Of a stretch of 64,000 nt of DNA, positions 14,240 through 22,738 are shown in pieces; within the stretch, counting starts at the first letter, position 1; every line of letters starts with the position of its first letter. The position numbers were made by a program, and so were the translations under genes. Source of the stretch: Candidatus Sulfotelmatobacter sp. (lineage in GTDB: Bacteria; Acidobacteriota; Terriglobia; Terriglobales; Acidobacteriaceae); the NCBI GenBank assembly GCA_030041215.1, contig JASHOH010000136.1:1-64000 (forward strand). Direction: 5' to 3'. The notes below the pieces were generated by a model that saw nothing but the letters and a program-made list of their open reading frames with translations, was not told the origin of the DNA and did not search any database.

Positions 14240-14571
14240 GGAGTTTTGTCCGCTTCTTGTAGGTGACAACTAGCAATCTGCCGACCAAACTGTAGGTGGT
14301 TGCAGTGTAAGTCCTTGCGTGTGTATGGGCTTCATGGCAATTCTAGGAATGGAAGAAATCACAAATCTGAATATGGATTCTGGAAGCTGGAAACTGGGAT
14401 TCCACATTCCAATGAACGGAGGTTGAAGGATCCATTGAACCTAAGTATTCGGCTAGATGTATTGGTCGTTTATTGTCGGAGCTCGCCGTATACTTGGGCT
14501 GGCTCGGCACCGATGCTGTAATCCGCTGAGCTTTTGCCGGCAAGTCCCTAGTGATGACCGGCAGTCGTTCC

Positions 14572-15480
14572 ATGGACTTCGACCAACTGCAAACGTTTCT
14601 GGAAGTAGCGCGGCATGCATCCTTCTCGCGGGCAGCCGAGAAGAGGTTTCGCACACAGCCGGCGATCTCTTCCCAGATTCGGGCTTTGGAGGACGAGGCA
14701 GGCGCCAAGCTTTTCGACCGCTCGGGTGGCAAGGTCTCGCTCACGGCGGCAGGCAAAGTCTTTCAGAAATATGCACAAGACGCCGTCGATGCCCGCAAGG
14801 CCATGCTCACTTCCCTGGCCGAAATGGATCACATACCTCGTGGCGCAATCGTCGTAGGCGCCAACGAAGGCACATGCCTGCACATTCTTCCCGAAGTTTT
14901 TGCCGACTTTAAGAAGCAGTATCCGAACGTTTCGGTGGGCATCAAGCGCGCCGACTATGCGAAAATTCTGGAATCAGTGATCGATAACTCGGTGGATTTT
15001 GGCGTAGTTTCGTTGCCGGTCAAAGACAATCGGCTCACCGTCGTGCTCATTCATCAGGATGAACTGGTGATCATCGCCCCGCCGCAACACACGTTGGGTA
15101 AACTGAAATCTGCCAGCGTGGCCGACGTGGCGAAGTATCCGCTGGTTATGCCCAAGGCCGGCCACACGCGCGACGCACTGGACAGTCTGTTTCGCGAGCG
15201 GCATCTGAAGCCGCACTACAGCATGGAACTGGATTCCAGCGAGCTTCTAAAGCGCTTTGTCGCCGCTGGCGTGGGCGTAGGCTTCATTGCCCGGTCCAAT
15301 GCAGAGGAGGATGTGCGTGCGCGTACTTTGTCTGCAATCCCCATGGCGGATGCACAGGTGCGGCGCGATCTAGCACTGGTTTTTCGCAAAGACAAAACAC
15401 TTAGCCGCGCCGCTCTCGCCTTCATTGATATCGCCAGAAAGCACAAATCCGACGGCGTACGCGCCTCGGGACCGAAGTAG
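14572..15480 (+). CDS. LysR-family transcriptional regulator
   Basis: Residues 2-60 form a winged helix-turn-helix (FDQLQTFLEVARHASFSRAA… with PAISSQIRALE as recognition helix), and residues 90-290 a periplasmic-binding-like effector domain, the standard ~300-residue LysR plan. The effector ligand is unknown. GTG 14551 and ATG 14554 are alternative starts adding 6-7 residues; 14572 puts the DNA-binding domain at the usual distance from the N-terminus. Its stop abuts the start of the next gene (no gap), so the two are probably co-transcribed. Confidence 0.85.
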   Translation: MDFDQLQTFLEVARHASFSRAAEKRFRTQPAISSQIRALEDEAGAKLFDRSGGKVSLTAAGKVFQKYAQDAVDARKAMLTSLAEMDHIPRGAIVVGANEGTCLHILPEVFADFKKQYPNVSVGIKRADYAKILESVIDNSVDFGVVSLPVKDNRLTVVLIHQDELVIIAPPQHTLGKLKSASVADVAKYPLVMPKAGHTRDALDSLFRERHLKPHYSMELDSSELLKRFVAAGVGVGFIARSNAEEDVRARTLSAIPMADAQVRRDLALVFRKDKTLSRAALAFIDIARKHKSDGVRASGPK

Positions 15481-16900: not shown

Positions 16901-17248
16901 ATGTATCCCGCTTCGACATGGGGCAGGATCGTAGCCGCATCAATCCTGCTGCTGATCTCAGCTCTCAATCTGGAGGCAGCTTCCGGCCGCAAGCGGACCT
17001 TCACGGGCGAGGTCGGCGACGCCATGTGCGGACGCAAGCACATGGAAGGCACTCCCGCCGAATGCACCCGCACCTGCGTCTCTCACGGCTCGAAGTTCGC
17101 CCTGGTTGTGGGCGAGAAAATTTACATTTTGGACACTGCTGACCAGAAGGCTTTGGCCATCCTGGACCAGCAGGCGGGCAAGAATGCAACAGTCGTGGGC
17201 GTGCTGAACGACGACACCATCGAAGTCAGCTCGGTCACACCCAAGTAA
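16901..17248 (+). CDS. Small secreted protein with conserved Cys residues
   Basis: A 115-residue product with a signal peptide (about residues 1-27). The mature part contains DAMCGRKHM and CTRTCVSHGSKFALV, then short beta strands (KIYILD, NATVVGVL, DTIEVSSV). The cysteines and His suggest a metal site or disulfides. Similar small proteins are frequent in acidobacterial genomes, but no function is known to me. GGAG lies about 12 bases upstream of the ATG. It ends about 45 bases before the promoter of the next transcript. Confidence 0.65.
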   Translation: MYPASTWGRIVAASILLLISALNLEAASGRKRTFTGEVGDAMCGRKHMEGTPAECTRTCVSHGSKFALVVGEKIYILDTADQKALAILDQQAGKNATVVGVLNDDTIEVSSVTPK

Positions 17249-17294
17249 CTGTCGGTCAATTTGTTCGCTAATCCGAACAACCGCCGGTTCGTTC

Positions 17295-17322
17295 TTGACT
17301 GGGGACAACTTTGTGGTAAATT
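17295..17322 (+). promoter_or_regulatory. Sigma-70-type promoter for the arginine decarboxylase leader
   Basis: TTGACT at 17295-17300 and TAAATT at 17317-17322 are separated by 16 bases. Transcription would start near 17329, at the first base of a foldable leader. It is the best match to a housekeeping promoter that I found in this region. Confidence 0.55.
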
Positions 17323-17324
17323 AG

Positions 17325-17410
17325 CCGGGTTCTGCCCGGAGCCCTCCCCCGAAGAGTCCGGGCACCACGGCGGGAACCGCGCCCGCGGTATCCCGCCAGT
17401 TTGTTTTTCC
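17325..17410 (+). ncRNA. Candidate structured leader / attenuator upstream of arginine decarboxylase
   Basis: Immediately downstream of the promoter, CCGGG (17325-17329) can pair with CCCGG (17335-17339). GCCCGGA (17334-17340) can instead pair with TCCGGGC (17357-17363). The two pairings are mutually exclusive. They are followed by a terminator hairpin (17369-17397) and a T-rich tail. This layout is typical of attenuators and riboswitches. It may equally be an independent ~80-nt small RNA. No known riboswitch class was recognised. Confidence 0.5.
17369..17410 (+). terminator. Strong intrinsic terminator in the leader
   Basis: Arms 17369-17375 and 17391-17397 pair perfectly and enclose a second stem, 17376-17381 with 17384-17389. 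The hairpin is followed by AGTTTGTTTTTCC. It lies 105 bases upstream of the arginine decarboxylase start and 121 bases after the preceding stop codon. It could end transcription of the small secreted protein gene or act as the attenuator of the leader. Confidence 0.8.
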
Positions 17411-17514
17411 GAACCGCGAAATTCATCTCTCCTTCACACAGCGTTGTGTTAATGTGCATTTTTCACGACAATTTCTGCGCTGGAGCTGCAGCTTCCGCGC
17501 CGGAGGCTAGAGCA

Positions 17515-18072
17515 TTGGGCAAAGACATGGTTCCCAAGAAGATGTTCTTCACAAAGGGGGTGGGTAAACACCGTGAGCGGTTGACATCTTTCGAATTGGC
17601 ATTGCGCGACGCCGGTATTGCGGCGCAGAACCTGGTGCGCGTGTCTTCCATCTTTCCGCCTAACTGCAAAATGCTGACCCGCAAGGAAGGCGTGACTTAT
17701 CTGAACCCCGGTGAAGTGGTCTTCGCCGTGGTGGCGGAAAACTCCAGCAAAGAGCCCCATCGGCTTCTGGCGGCTTCGATTGGCGTCGCGATTCCGGCTG
17801 ACAAGAACACCTATGGATACCTCAGCGAGCATCATTCCTTTGGCGAAACTGAAGATGCGGCCGGCGAATACGCGGAAGAATTAGCCGCCGAGATGCTGGC
17901 GACTACTTTGAATGTCGAATTCGATCCTGACCGGTCCTGGGACGAAAAGAAGCAGATTTACCGGCTATCGAATAAGATTGTGCGCACGGCGAATGTCACG
18001 CAGTCGGCGGTAGGAGACAAGCGCGGGCTGTGGACGACGGTCATCGCCTCGGCCGTGCTGATATTTGACTGA
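17515..18072 (+). CDS. Pyruvoyl-dependent arginine decarboxylase
   Basis: The enzyme removes CO2 from arginine to give agmatine, the first step of putrescine synthesis in this cluster. [10 protein letters not shown] carries the Ser-Ser bond that is self-cleaved; the second Ser becomes the pyruvoyl group. [15 protein letters not shown] and [20 protein letters not shown] match the rest of the small two-chain fold, and the ~180-residue length is normal. TTG 17515 is preferred because GGAGG lies 8 bases upstream; ATG 17527 is the next option. The stop is followed directly by the next gene's ATG. It lies downstream of a terminator-bearing leader. Confidence 0.85.
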
Positions 18073-19251
18073 ATGCAGCGCAGATCCTTCCTTAAAGGCG
18101 CAGGAGCCGTCATCGTCGTGGCGGTAGGTGGCCTCGCTTGGCGCGCCTGTGATCAGGGCGTCTTCAGCGTGGGTCAAGGACCGGCTTACGAGCCGTGGAA
18201 AGATTGGCGCAAAACGGACGATACTCCCCTCGCGCTGGTGCGCGCCGCCATTCTGGCTGCCAGCCCGCATAACACACAGCCCTGGCTCTTCAAAGTGACG
18301 AACTCGGGGATTGAGCTGCACATCGACACTCGGCGAAATGTCGGAGCGCTGGACCCGTATCTGCGTGAAGAGCATATTGGCATGGGTTGCGCTCTGGAAA
18401 ATTTGCTGTTGGCAGCGCCCGCCAACGGCTATGCAGCCACTGTGACGCTGGAACCGGGCAAACTCGAGCCAATCCCTGCCGAGCCCAAGCCGCAGTTGCT
18501 GGCGCGCGTAGAACTCGCGAGTGGACAACGCGCGCAGAGTGAGCTCTACAATGCCATCCCGCTTCGGCACACCAATCGTGGCCCGTACGACCCGCACAAG
18601 GCGATTTCACCTGATCTTCTACAAGCTCTCACCGGTTTGCCGGGTGATGATATCGATGTCAAAGTGTTCCTGTTTACCGCGGAGGCGGATCGCAGGAAGA
18701 TCGCTGAGCTTAGTTCCACGGCAAACGATGAAATCTATTCGGACCCAAAGGTTCAGCAAGGCAGCCATCCTTGGGTCCGCACAAAATGGAGTTCGGTGCA
18801 GAAGTATCGGGATGGCCTGACGATTGACGCGTTCGGTTTGCCGCCCATCGGCACTGCGATTGCCAAAACCGTTCCGTTGCGGATGCTTAACTGGCTTGGA
18901 TCACATAGCGAGACTCACGGCTACGTAAACTTGATGCTCAGCGCCCCTGTAGTCGGGTTTATCGCCGTGCGCGATCGCTACGATCGAGAGCAATGTTTGA
19001 AAGCGGGGAGAATCTGGCAGCGAACGCATTTATTGGCGACGGCCCGCGGACTCGCCGCACGGCCATGCAACGAGCTTGTAGAAATGGTTGACCACGAGCG
19101 AGCGCTGGGCAAACCGGCCATGCGAGTTGCGATGCTCAATGAGATCACCGGCGATCCCACGTGGCAGCCGACGTTCGTTTTTTATGTGGGATATCCCACG
19201 CTCAAGGCAAATGCCAGTCCGCGGCGCGGGATCGAGGCTGTGGTGATGTGA
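18073..19251 (+). CDS. Tat-exported nitroreductase-like (Acg-type) flavoprotein
   Basis: A 392-residue protein starting MQRRSFLKGAG, a twin-arginine signal, so it is probably exported folded with its cofactor. The ASPHNTQPWLF and PLRHTNRGPYD segments match the Acg/nitroreductase-like FMN-binding family. A two-lobed arrangement (residues ~55-190 and 200-375) is consistent with that family, whose substrate is largely unknown. It begins one base after the arginine decarboxylase stop, so the two are co-transcribed. A role in polyamine metabolism is not established. Confidence 0.75.
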   Translation: MQRRSFLKGAGAVIVVAVGGLAWRACDQGVFSVGQGPAYEPWKDWRKTDDTPLALVRAAILAASPHNTQPWLFKVTNSGIELHIDTRRNVGALDPYLREEHIGMGCALENLLLAAPANGYAATVTLEPGKLEPIPAEPKPQLLARVELASGQRAQSELYNAIPLRHTNRGPYDPHKAISPDLLQALTGLPGDDIDVKVFLFTAEADRRKIAELSSTANDEIYSDPKVQQGSHPWVRTKWSSVQKYRDGLTIDAFGLPPIGTAIAKTVPLRMLNWLGSHSETHGYVNLMLSAPVVGFIAVRDRYDREQCLKAGRIWQRTHLLATARGLAARPCNELVEMVDHERALGKPAMRVAMLNEITGDPTWQPTFVFYVGYPTLKANASPRRGIEAVVM

Positions 19252-19278
19252 GAACAGCAGCCACAGAACAGCGAAATT

Positions 19279-20430
19279 TCACTTTCTCGCTGCTGCCAAC
19301 TTCCCCTTGCTCGCCCTGTTCCCCTTTTTATCTAGCCGCTCAAAAACCGCCGCGGCGATCAGAGGCAGGCCGATGGTCGCGTCCACGAACACTTCGCCAA
19401 ACATTCCGCCTTCTGCCGAAGGGACAAACTTGCCCCATGAAATGGCCTCACTGTACGGGCTTCCTGACAGCCCGCCCCAATACACCGGTTCCGGACAAAT
19501 CCTCAAGCCATAGTGATACCGCTTCAGAGGAATGTTCTCCCCCAGCCTGCGGTGGCGCAGTTCACAGAATGGCCCGAACTGTTGCGACCAGTTGCGGGGC
19601 ACTCCGCCACCAATGGTAATAATTCCCAGCTTTTTCTGCCGCAGCAACGTGGCGGCGAAATGCTCTAGATCGAGGAAGGGATCAAAGCGAATCTTGTGTC
19701 GTCCTGTCGATTCGCGCAGGCGATTGTTCAATGCTGTATCCAGGCCCAACTCGGAATCCGTGAACGCCGGCACGAACACCGGCACGCCCTGCTCAAACGC
19801 CGATTTGAGGATTCCCCGCTGATCACGCGCATTCTTCGCCAAATACTCCCCAATCGCGTGATTCAGCTTGTACGAGCACATCACCTCATTGTGGTCCCAG
19901 CCCTCGAGAATCGCCGACATGACTTCTTCCACGTCGTCGAGGTTCTGCTCGGGCTCTAGCGTGTCATAAACTCGGTTGTAGCCCTGCTCGTAAAGTTCTT
20001 CATCCGATACTTCAGGGTTATAGCGGAAGTGGGCGCGGCCCGTGGCCTCAACCAGGCCGTGAGCCATGAGGGCGCCGGTCGAGACGACGGCGTTCACGAT
20101 GCCACGATCGATGAGATCGGTGATAACCAGGCCTTGTTTGGCAACGGTCATTGCCCCTGAGAGGGTCATTACGACGAAGCAATCCTCGTCGCGGGCCATG
20201 GCTTCGAGCACGTCTGCCGCTTCGCCCAACTGTCGGCCAGTGAACGCTGTTTTCGCCATCGCGCGGACCAGGTCGTCGATTGATTTGACCTTGCCGAGAT
20301 CAAGCGGCTCGAGCGGAGTCAACCGGTCTTCAATCGGATTGTGCAGATGACGGTCTCTGCCCTCGCCCGAATTTACCGCGTGCTCGTGTGCCTTGCCATG
20401 ACGGGCATTGCCATGATTGCCGTTTTTCAT
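19279..20430 (-). CDS. Deoxyhypusine-synthase-family protein (candidate homospermidine synthase)
   Basis: A 383-residue protein of the deoxyhypusine synthase fold. VMTLSGAMTVA, DEELYEQGYNRVYDT and IGGGVPRN fit the NAD- and substrate-binding parts. EAISWGK places Lys334 at the position of the catalytic lysine of the eukaryotic enzyme. Bacteria lack eIF5A, and bacterial relatives have been linked to homospermidine-type polyamine synthesis by aminobutyl transfer. The setting between arginine decarboxylase and the agmatine-to-putrescine genes supports such a role (inference). ATG 20430 has GGAGGG upstream; the gene is divergent from aguB. Confidence 0.8.
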   Translation of the reverse strand: MKNGNHGNARHGKAHEHAVNSGEGRDRHLHNPIEDRLTPLEPLDLGKVKSIDDLVRAMAKTAFTGRQLGEAADVLEAMARDEDCFVVMTLSGAMTVAKQGLVITDLIDRGIVNAVVSTGALMAHGLVEATGRAHFRYNPEVSDEELYEQGYNRVYDTLEPEQNLDDVEEVMSAILEGWDHNEVMCSYKLNHAIGEYLAKNARDQRGILKSAFEQGVPVFVPAFTDSELGLDTALNNRLRESTGRHKIRFDPFLDLEHFAATLLRQKKLGIITIGGGVPRNWSQQFGPFCELRHRRLGENIPLKRYHYGLRICPEPVYWGGLSGSPYSEAISWGKFVPSAEGGMFGEVFVDATIGLPLIAAAVFERLDKKGNRASKGKLAAARK

Positions 20431-20524
20431 GCTGCTACCCTCCAGCTTCGACGAGAAGTCCTCGAACAAATACTCTACAGGAAGCGCATAGCAGCCTGCC
20501 ACGTTTCGGCAGGTGATGCACAAC

Positions 20525-21511
20525 ATGCAACTCCGGACGCAGCCTGACAGCCGAAACCCGAAGCCGTTCGCGAATGCTATATTGATGACCGGAGATCAAT
20601 ACTTGCCTCCTGAGAAATTCCGCGTGGCTCTGGTGCAGATGTCCTGCGGCCCGGAACCAGAACAAAATCTGCAAAAAGCACTTGAACGCGTGGCCGATGC
20701 CGCCGGGCGCGGCGCGAAAGTCGTCTGCCTGCCCGAATTATTCCAGACCCAATATTTCTGCCAGCGGGAAGATCCCAGCCTGTTTGATTTGGCTGAACCG
20801 ATTCCCGGACCCTCCACTGAAAAACTCGCTGCCGCCGCGCGAGAGAACGGAATAGTGCTAATCGCGTCGCTATTTGAGAAGCGGGCGCCGGGCATCTGCC
20901 ACAATACCGCAGCTGTTTTCGACGCTGATGGCTCGCTGTGCGGGATTTACCGCAAGATGCACATCCCCGACGATCCTCTATATTACGAGAAGTTTTACTT
21001 CACACCGGGTGATATGGGATTTCGCGCGCTCGATACAAGCATCGGCCGCCTGGGAACTCTGGTTTGCTGGGACCAATGGTTTCCGGAGGGTGCGAGGTTG
21101 ACGGCGCTGCAAGGAGCGCAGGTTTTGTTTTACCCAACAGCAATTGGCTGGCATCCCGCCGAGAAAGCCGAGTTCGGCGAAGCCCAGCATGATGCCTGGC
21201 GTACGATTCAGCGCGCCCACGCAATTGCCAACGGAGTTTACGTTGCCGTCGTAAATCGCGTTGGGTTTGAAACGGGCAATGTTCGCGGCAAGTCGACTCC
21301 GGGACAGGGTCTGGAATTCTGGGGCGGATCCTTCTTCTGCGATCCTTTTGGCAGAGTTCTGGCGGAAGGTTCGCTTGATCGTGAAGAGATTGTGGTCGGC
21401 GATGTGGATCTGAAAACTCTCGAGGACATTCGCCGCAACTGGCCTTTCTTGCGTGATCGAAGAATTGACGCCTATGCACCGATTTCCAATCGATTGTTGG
21501 ACGGGAACTGA
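20525..21511 (+). CDS. aguB: N-carbamoylputrescine amidase
   Basis: A nitrilase-superfamily hydrolase that converts N-carbamoylputrescine to putrescine, CO2 and ammonia. The catalytic triad is visible: Glu in CLPELFQTQYF, Lys in YRKMHIPDDP, Cys in LVCWDQWFPE. ALQGAQVLFYPTAIGWHP is typical of AguB. ATG 20525 is used because AGGTGA lies 8 bases upstream; GTG 20513, ATG 20516 and ATG 20585 are alternatives. It is followed after 9 bases by agmatine deiminase and is divergent from the DHS-like gene, across a ~95-base promoter region. Confidence 0.9.
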   Translation: MQLRTQPDSRNPKPFANAILMTGDQYLPPEKFRVALVQMSCGPEPEQNLQKALERVADAAGRGAKVVCLPELFQTQYFCQREDPSLFDLAEPIPGPSTEKLAAAARENGIVLIASLFEKRAPGICHNTAAVFDADGSLCGIYRKMHIPDDPLYYEKFYFTPGDMGFRALDTSIGRLGTLVCWDQWFPEGARLTALQGAQVLFYPTAIGWHPAEKAEFGEAQHDAWRTIQRAHAIANGVYVAVVNRVGFETGNVRGKSTPGQGLEFWGGSFFCDPFGRVLAEGSLDREEIVVGDVDLKTLEDIRRNWPFLRDRRIDAYAPISNRLLDGN

Positions 21512-21520
21512 AACAAACCC

Positions 21521-22738
21521 GTGACGAACCACTCCAGCAAGACTTCAAGTAATACTTTAACTGAGGGTGTCACGCCTTTTGCCACTTTTGCGAAAGGTGG
21601 GTTCCACGTACGCCGATCCCTTCGCATGCCCGCCGAATGGGAGCCGCACGAAGCGACCTGGCTCGCCTGGCCGCACCACGAAGGCGACTGGCCGGGCAAG
21701 TTCGAGCCAATTCCCTGGGTGTATGCGGAAATAATTCGGAATCTCGCGCGCTATGAGCGCGTGGAACTGATTGTCAACGATGCATTGGCAGAACGGCGCG
21801 TGAGGAAGTTGTTGCTTCGTGCGAACGCACTCTCCAACAACGTGCGCTTTCATCGCTGGCCGACCGACCGTGTGTGGCTCCGTGATTCGGGGTGCGTTTT
21901 TGCCCGGCCGGACAGCCGAGGGCGGCTGTCCCTACGCAAGGATTGGGAAGAGCGCAAGTTTAGCCGTGCCGATAAAGACGGGAAAAGAACGAAGGCTTCA
22001 GCCCGTCCGGTAATTGCTCTCATCTTCCGCTTCAATGCGTGGGCCAAGTATTCCAACTATCGGCATGATGAAAAAATCGGCGCCCTCATGGCCAAAGTCG
22101 CTGGCGTGCAGCACATTCAACCTCTGCACTGCCAGAGACGGGTCGTTCTTGAAGGCGGCTCCATCGATGTCAACGGACAAGGCACAATCCTCACCACCGA
22201 AGAGTGCCTGCTGAGCAAAATCCAGCAGCGCAACCCCGGCATGAAGCGCAAAGACTACGAAAAGCTCTTCACCGACTATCTCGGGGCGCCGAATGTGATC
22301 TGGCTCGGTAAAGGCGTTGCAGGCGATGATACTCATGGTCACGTCGATGACCTGGCCCGGTTCGTGAATCCCAACACAGTAATCACGATGGTTGAGCGCA
22401 ATCCCAAAGACGCCAATCGCGCTCCGCTGAGTGAAAATCTCCGCCGCTTGAAAAACGCCCACGACCAAGACGGCAAGCAGCTGAATGTTGTCGAAATCCC
22501 TATGCCAGCGCCTGTGATTTTCGAAAAACGACGCTTGCCTGCGAGCTACGCAAACTTTTACATCGCGAATGGAATCGTGCTGGTCCCTGTGTTCGACGAC
22601 GCGAACGATCGCATTGCTTTGGATACTCTGGGCGCGCTCTTCCCTTCCCGCGAAATCATACCCATCTACTCCGGCGATCTGGTTTGGGGCCTCGGCACCA
22701 TGCACTGCATGACGCAACAGCAACCTGCGGCGAACTGA
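21521..22738 (+). CDS. aguA: Agmatine deiminase, with a repeat-derived internal insertion
   Basis: A 405-residue porphyromonas-type agmatine deiminase that makes N-carbamoylputrescine from agmatine. Visible are MPAEWEPHEATWLAWP, DRVWLRDSG, GGSIDVNGQG, GDDTHGHVDD and the catalytic Cys396 in GLGTMHC. Between RDSG and the conserved FNAWAKYSNY block lies an extra ~35-residue basic stretch. It is encoded partly by a palindromic repeat at 21910-21931, so a repeat seems to have been inserted in frame. The GTG start at 21521 is uncertain; ATG 21626, just before the conserved start, is possible. It forms an operon with aguB. Confidence 0.88.
   Translation: MTNHSSKTSSNTLTEGVTPFATFAKGGFHVRRSLRMPAEWEPHEATWLAWPHHEGDWPGKFEPIPWVYAEIIRNLARYERVELIVNDALAERRVRKLLLRANALSNNVRFHRWPTDRVWLRDSGCVFARPDSRGRLSLRKDWEERKFSRADKDGKRTKASARPVIALIFRFNAWAKYSNYRHDEKIGALMAKVAGVQHIQPLHCQRRVVLEGGSIDVNGQGTILTTEECLLSKIQQRNPGMKRKDYEKLFTDYLGAPNVIWLGKGVAGDDTHGHVDDLARFVNPNTVITMVERNPKDANRAPLSENLRRLKNAHDQDGKQLNVVEIPMPAPVIFEKRRLPASYANFYIANGIVLVPVFDDANDRIALDTLGALFPSREIIPIYSGDLVWGLGTMHCMTQQQPAAN
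21910..21931. repeat. Palindromic repeat inside agmatine deiminase
   Basis: Eight-base arms, 21910-21917 and 21924-21931, are perfect complements around a six-base loop. The element is read in frame as part of the coding sequence and encodes DSRGRLSL. It is followed by a second imperfect inverted repeat made of GACGGG and CCCGTC, at about 21978-22008. Similar palindromes are known as intergenic repeats in acidobacteria, so the location inside a gene is unusual. Confidence 0.65.

Follow-up and report, generated by a model that had tools for sequence, protein, structure and literature searches.

The closest described systems set a C-rich small RNA against a G-rich one: in the account of PMC8216469, RoxS and FsrA of Bacillus subtilis are met by the sponge RosA, an RNA of ~225 nt, and RsaE of Staphylococcus aureus is met by RsaI. 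The locus reported here, from the acidobacterial genus Candidatus Sulfotelmatobacter, resembles these systems in that a stand-alone C-rich RNA (here called C-loop RNA) faces a stand-alone G-rich RNA (G-loop RNA). It differs in belonging to an unrelated phylum, in having, as far as compared, unrelated sequence, and in that single hairpin loops face each other. Both RNAs are also shorter than RosA, at ~70 to 80 nt each, and the copy numbers are arranged differently, the G-rich side being older and many-copy here and the C-rich side single-copy and genus-bound. The 6C RNA of Actinobacteria (RF01066) is a small RNA with two C-rich hairpin loops; C-loop RNA shares the C-rich hairpin loop but has one instead of two, and the 6C model did not match here. 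Acidobacteriota are common in soil. A review table lists four distinct annotated small RNAs for them (PMC9029176), and noncoding RNAs of Acidobacteria include Acido-1 (RF01686) and Acido-Lenti-1 (RF01687) (PMC2864571), neither of whose models matched the window, the tested C-loop loci, or the tested G-loop loci. In the parts of the literature on acidobacterial small RNAs and Sulfotelmatobacter sRNA that were available to us, we found no description of either RNA.

The window is the whole stretch of DNA that was analyzed, 64,000 nucleotides of a Candidatus Sulfotelmatobacter contig (JASHOH010000136.1). C-loop RNA, with predicted ends at 17329 and 17408, is very probably a free small RNA; it and all other features given here lie on the + strand, apart from one inverted repeat to which no strand was assigned. 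The initial annotation had placed a promoter at 17295 to 17322 and a strong terminator with a T run behind it, and both stood up. The promoter letters read TTGACT-N16-TAAATT with a TG preceding the second hexamer (TGTGG-TAAATT), and a loose pattern recovered an extended −10 element at the same spot in 19 of 42 relatives, the window included, leaving 23 copies with no recognized promoter; the bare promoter pattern itself occurred at chance level in the 5-kb region (2 found versus 1.9 expected). Hairpin 1 (UGCCCGGA/UCCGGGCA; 17333 to 17364) pairs 17333 to 17340 with 17357 to 17364 in the fold, with 98.0% of cells paired across the 42 relatives, and its loop holds the proposed pairing site GCCCUCCCCC (17341 to 17350), an exact complement of the G-loop RNAs. 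The terminator (17369 to 17408) consists of a stable hairpin at 17369 to 17397 with a covarying stem, followed by a T-rich tail at 17400 to 17408. Folding gave z = −3.28 for 17323 to 17412, with a stability beyond all 200 shuffles, and z = −4.56 for 17329 to 17406. A consensus terminator scan missed the window hairpin and returned fewer sites than its shuffles (3 versus 5.5).

A DNA search of 61 genomes matched 35, and at least nine of the matches began at query position 78 to 80, corresponding to window positions 17327 to 17329, beside the predicted transcript start. A covariance model, R1, was built from 27 sequences (the window and 26 relatives) and matches window positions 17330 to 17404. 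At an E value of ≤0.01, it found C-loop RNA in 42 of 45 Candidatus Sulfotelmatobacter genomes, with one strong copy each (34 to 92 bits); additional matches in some of these genomes reached at most 26 bits. Of the three genomes without a match, two had no detectable PvlArgDC, the gene downstream in the window, and in the third the contig starts inside PvlArgDC. On public contigs, strong R1 matches came from Candidatus Sulfotelmatobacter and from Acidobacteriaceae, Acidobacteria, or Terriglobia bacteria. A pattern scan of public contigs yielded 60 stretches, 28 of them scoring ≥65 bits with R1; the remainder scored <30 bits or had no listed R1 score and were taken as chance. Across 299 genomes of the class, R1 matched 26 at an E value of ≤0.001, four of them from Sulfotelmatobacter, and gave only weak matches outside the genus, which rescored at <30 bits and looked by eye like other terminators or chance. 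One look-alike, a C-rich loop between p115 and PvlArgDC in another genus (L167, genome G307; z = −3.46), was not kept; G364, of the same genus as G307, has only a terminator at that spot. Viral contigs held no exact match to the core pattern of C-loop or G-loop RNA. Since searches over >40 genomes (the genus and class searches with R1 and with R2, the G-loop model described below) used stricter filters, copy numbers and presence should be read as minimum values; many of the genomes searched are draft or metagenome assemblies.

In the 42 relatives aligned to R1, 95.8% of cells paired, versus 87.0% in shuffles and 33.3 to 53.2% in slid versions of the structure; an alignment made in this way leans toward the structure. 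Alignments A4, A7, and A8 were all model-fitted. The covariation search suggested by the initial annotation was positive in these relatives: 11 of 16 pairs showed changes on both sides, versus 4.1 in shuffles, and none of 500 shuffles reached the observed values. Covariation fell mostly in the terminator; hairpin 1 hardly changed, with one or two sequences behind each both-sided change there. The loop read GCCCTCCCC in 36 of the 42 RNAs, five loops had CCTTCCCCC instead of CCCTCCCCC, and the loop of L178 read GTCCCGACCCCC. No Rfam 15 family matched the window or the tested C-loop loci at gathering score, in line with the earlier statement that no known class was recognized.

The exact complement of the C-loop, GGGGGAGGGC, occurred at seven sites in the same genome and was not enriched there (12 sites for a reversed control). 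One of the seven is the C-loop RNA gene itself. At four of the remaining six, GCAG(TTCT or CACTT)GGGGGAGGGCTG precedes a hairpin and a T run. These four define the G-loop RNA, in which a nearly invariant hairpin, GCAGUUCUGGGGGAGGGCUGC, leads into a covarying terminator and which is preceded by promoter-like sequence. The four loci look intergenic when stop-to-stop frames are inspected, and their RNAs folded with z scores from −3.4 to −6.1. Model R2, built from these four loci, found G-loop RNA in all 45 genus genomes at an E value of ≤0.01, with 1 to 14 copies. At ≤1e−5 it matched 68 of the 299 class genomes, namely, 4 Sulfotelmatobacter genomes, 60 genomes that belong to the same bacterial family but to different genera, and 4 genomes from outside the family, of which three lay near the threshold. 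The RNA was detected in 23 of the 106 genera of the class sample; at least 10 genomes of the bacterial family gave no R2 match. Outside Sulfotelmatobacter, most genera with G-loop RNA have a single copy (55 of the 60 family genomes, the other five having several copies), as against up to 14 copies in Sulfotelmatobacter.

We examined 60 genus stretches (63 matches) and 26 loci from other genera. The sequence GGGGGAGGG was kept in 62 of the 63 genus RNAs and 25 of the 26 others, and the terminator helix covaried in both sets; in the genus set, the observed number of both-sided pairs was reached by 4 of 500 shuffles and that of pair types by 18 of 500, and in the other-genus set by none. A loose promoter pattern, applied without a control, preceded 73 of 89 G-loop RNAs. 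No Rfam 15 match overlapped G-loop RNA at any of the loci tested, which were 19 of the 26 other-genus loci and five loci of the window genome. In many G-loop genes (among L301 to L360), the −35 region is immediately preceded by an inverted repeat, TGGCAC-N4/5-GTGCCA, and others carry ATTACCAAAGTGACGTTTACA; the two boxes are probably sites of two different regulators. In two other genera (L275 and L282), a thioredoxin-like gene follows G-loop RNA at a short distance, as judged by eye, and one copy in the window genome (L227) adjoins a Fur-like gene. A decayed copy (L310:986-1058) has lost the G loop and kept the terminator hairpin.

As with RoxS and RosA, a C-rich part of one RNA and a complementary G-rich part of another are found in the same genome. 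The uninterrupted pairing run between the C-loop and CAGUUCUGGGGGAGGGCUG, with G-loop stem letters included, was 9 to 16 nt (median, 11) with G-U pairs allowed and had a median of 10 nt with Watson-Crick pairs only. Among the 41 of 42 loops that could be parsed (L205 was left out), 37 had a run that ≤5% of 500 same-loop shuffles reached. In the five loops whose C run is altered, pairing with the G loop is kept through G-U pairs (judged by eye for L205). The weak case was L178, in which the match is largely lost and five Watson-Crick pairs in a row remain. The near invariance of the G loop leaves no way to show compensating changes between the RNAs. In addition, both loops look like Shine-Dalgarno and anti-Shine-Dalgarno sequence, which could account for part of the match. 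Other genera were searched for a C-loop partner through 120 GCCCTCCCCC sites in 12 genomes, one per genus, of which 90 were fetched and 5 set aside as G-loop RNA antisense; stems around the remaining 85 were no commoner than with shuffled flanks. Two of the loci seen there have a single C-loop hairpin on a different stem, of 6 bp and followed by a terminator in L374 (G347) and of 9 bp in L381 (G339; ~0.05 expected at 9 bp or more).

Our reading is that C-loop RNA would be transcribed from its own promoter and ended at its own terminator, and that hairpin 1 would present the C-rich loop GCCCUCCCCC, which could pair with the G-rich loop of the G-loop RNAs, whose genes occupy four further loci of this genome. 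By analogy with RosA and RoxS, C-loop RNA would then be an anti-sRNA (sponge) sequestering the G-loop RNAs, which occur without it in other genera of the bacterial family, and this is most likely its job. Sequence comparison shows conserved structure, conserved complementarity, and an arrangement independent of PvlArgDC; we infer transcription, loop binding, and the direction of control. That pairing with G-loop RNAs is the function of C-loop RNA we regard as an evenly balanced proposition.

The main rival to such pairing is targeting of Shine-Dalgarno sequences, by which C-loop RNA would repress mRNAs with its C-rich loop and the G-loop RNAs, if they bind it, would be its sponges, giving the polarity of RoxS and RosA. 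We consider this possible, if somewhat doubtful. The loop contains CCUCC, the complement of GGAGG ribosome-binding sites, and RoxS and FsrA are described as using C-rich loops in this manner (PMC8216469). The 9- to 12-nt match with the G-loop hairpin, however, exceeds what Shine-Dalgarno pairing needs, and among the other exact 10-nt sites in the genome (exact sites being the ones considered), none of six is in ribosome-binding position or precedes a reading frame. The G-loop RNAs also occur in genera in which no C-loop RNA was detected with R1, so sponging C-loop RNA cannot be their only role.

That the element does no more than terminate the upstream gene, or that it is a small RNA processed from the 3′ end of that gene's transcript, is improbable. 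The upstream neighbor in the window, p115 (16901 to 17248), encodes a small protein with no Pfam match, and several copies of the element have p115 ending 50 to 90 bases upstream and no recognized promoter. A plain terminator would leave the conserved hairpin 1 and its loop unexplained, and the extended −10 element in 19 of 42 copies argues against both versions, though a 3′-derived RNA is possible for the copies that lack it. The position of p115 also varies: it is upstream of the RNA at 23 of the 42 loci, downstream at 16, on both sides at 1, and not found at 2. The conserved, covarying structure is therefore independent of one neighboring gene, as befits a free small RNA. The locus with p115 on both sides (L200, genome G020) is possibly an intermediate between the two gene orders, reached via duplication and loss. 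A midpoint-rooted tree of LysR and PvlArgDC DNA, shown without support values and covering 39 of the 42 loci, placed the 16 copies with a recognized promoter on one side and the type B copies together with promoter-less type A copies on the other.

A POTRA gene lies near C-loop RNA at all 42 loci, and a gene for a LysR-type regulator (14551 to 15480 in the window; PF00126 and PF03466) lies near it at 31. An inverted repeat read from the window sequence, TTGTTCG-N6-CGAACAA (17261 to 17280), is a possible operator; it is centered ~58 bases before the predicted RNA start, a usual place for LysR-type regulators. Boxes related to it, located 67 to 69 bases before the model start, were present in 12 of the 19 copies with an extended −10 element and absent from 7, and among the type B copies several have a box such as TTCCGGTTTTTGGAAC. 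Control of C-loop RNA by the nearby LysR-type regulator is only a guess, because no LysR gene was found at 11 of the 42 loci, in at least 4 of which the stretch extends >3 kb upstream.

The initial annotation had taken the order of promoter, hairpins, terminator, and gene in the window as the layout of an attenuator or riboswitch, a reading that we now consider very improbable. The gene in question, which it had placed ~105 bases beyond the terminator, a distance that was confirmed, encodes the pyruvoyl-dependent arginine decarboxylase PvlArgDC (17515 to 18072; PF01862, E value of 3.6e−61). Its start is probably the TTG at 17515, given the Shine-Dalgarno sequence (GGAGG at 17502 to 17506) and the start seen in relatives. 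Between terminator and gene, a conserved block recognized by eye (17419 to 17459) contains an extended −10 element (TGTTAATGT) and is likely the gene's own promoter. TGTGTTA or TATGTTA occurred within 130 bases upstream of PvlArgDC at all 40 loci with the gene start covered, this conserved −10 element lying downstream of the C-loop RNA terminator, and by eye similar elements precede PvlArgDC in genera that have no C-loop RNA according to R1. Of the competing stems that had been proposed, UGCCCGGA/UCCGGGCA is real, but of the 42 relatives only one, the window itself, has the upstream arm of the alternative CCGGG/CCCGG pairing, so that mutually exclusive structures are not conserved. Nor is the RNA always directly upstream of PvlArgDC: p115 stands between them at 17 of 42 loci, and at L206 the gene starts 2,252 bases past the RNA start. 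An RNA position not tied to PvlArgDC, the missing alternative stem, and a separate PvlArgDC promoter led us to reject the attenuator, and nothing was found in favor of the polyamine, arginine, or guanidine-type ligand suggested for it. The fallback offered at the time, a free small RNA, is well supported by covariation, by the shifts in position, and by the separate PvlArgDC −10 element. From 17515 to 22738, the window holds PvlArgDC, a nitroreductase-like protein, deoxyhypusine synthase, a carbon-nitrogen hydrolase, and a PAD_porph protein, which we take to be agmatine deiminase; together they form an agmatine-to-putrescine cluster that includes a bacterial deoxyhypusine synthase.

Finally, although GGGGGA sits atop a stem in the G loop, it is extremely improbable that G-loop RNAs titrate CsrA via the loop GGA and that C-loop RNA frees CsrA, because CsrA (PF02599) was not found in any of 16 genomes, 7 of them Sulfotelmatobacter and 15 with a G-loop match (G360 was not searched for G-loop RNA), in a search that matched 3 of 14 control genomes, E. 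coli included; a GGA-binding protein other than CsrA is possible.

For Sulfotelmatobacter, we tentatively propose a many-to-one circuit in which a single-copy C-loop anti-RNA would check an older G-loop family of up to 14 copies. As a speculation, a G-loop gene copied in inverted orientation may have given rise to the C-loop hairpin (compare AGCCCTCCCCC-GAA in the window with AGCCCTCCCCCAGAA in the G-loop antisense). The analysis adds two RNA families with working models that are absent from Rfam 15, one of them spread over 23 genera of the class sample, and provides a ready hypothesis for their mutual action. If that hypothesis is true, the C-rich/G-rich RNA antagonism of Firmicutes would also hold in an unrelated phylum, where the copy numbers are reversed.
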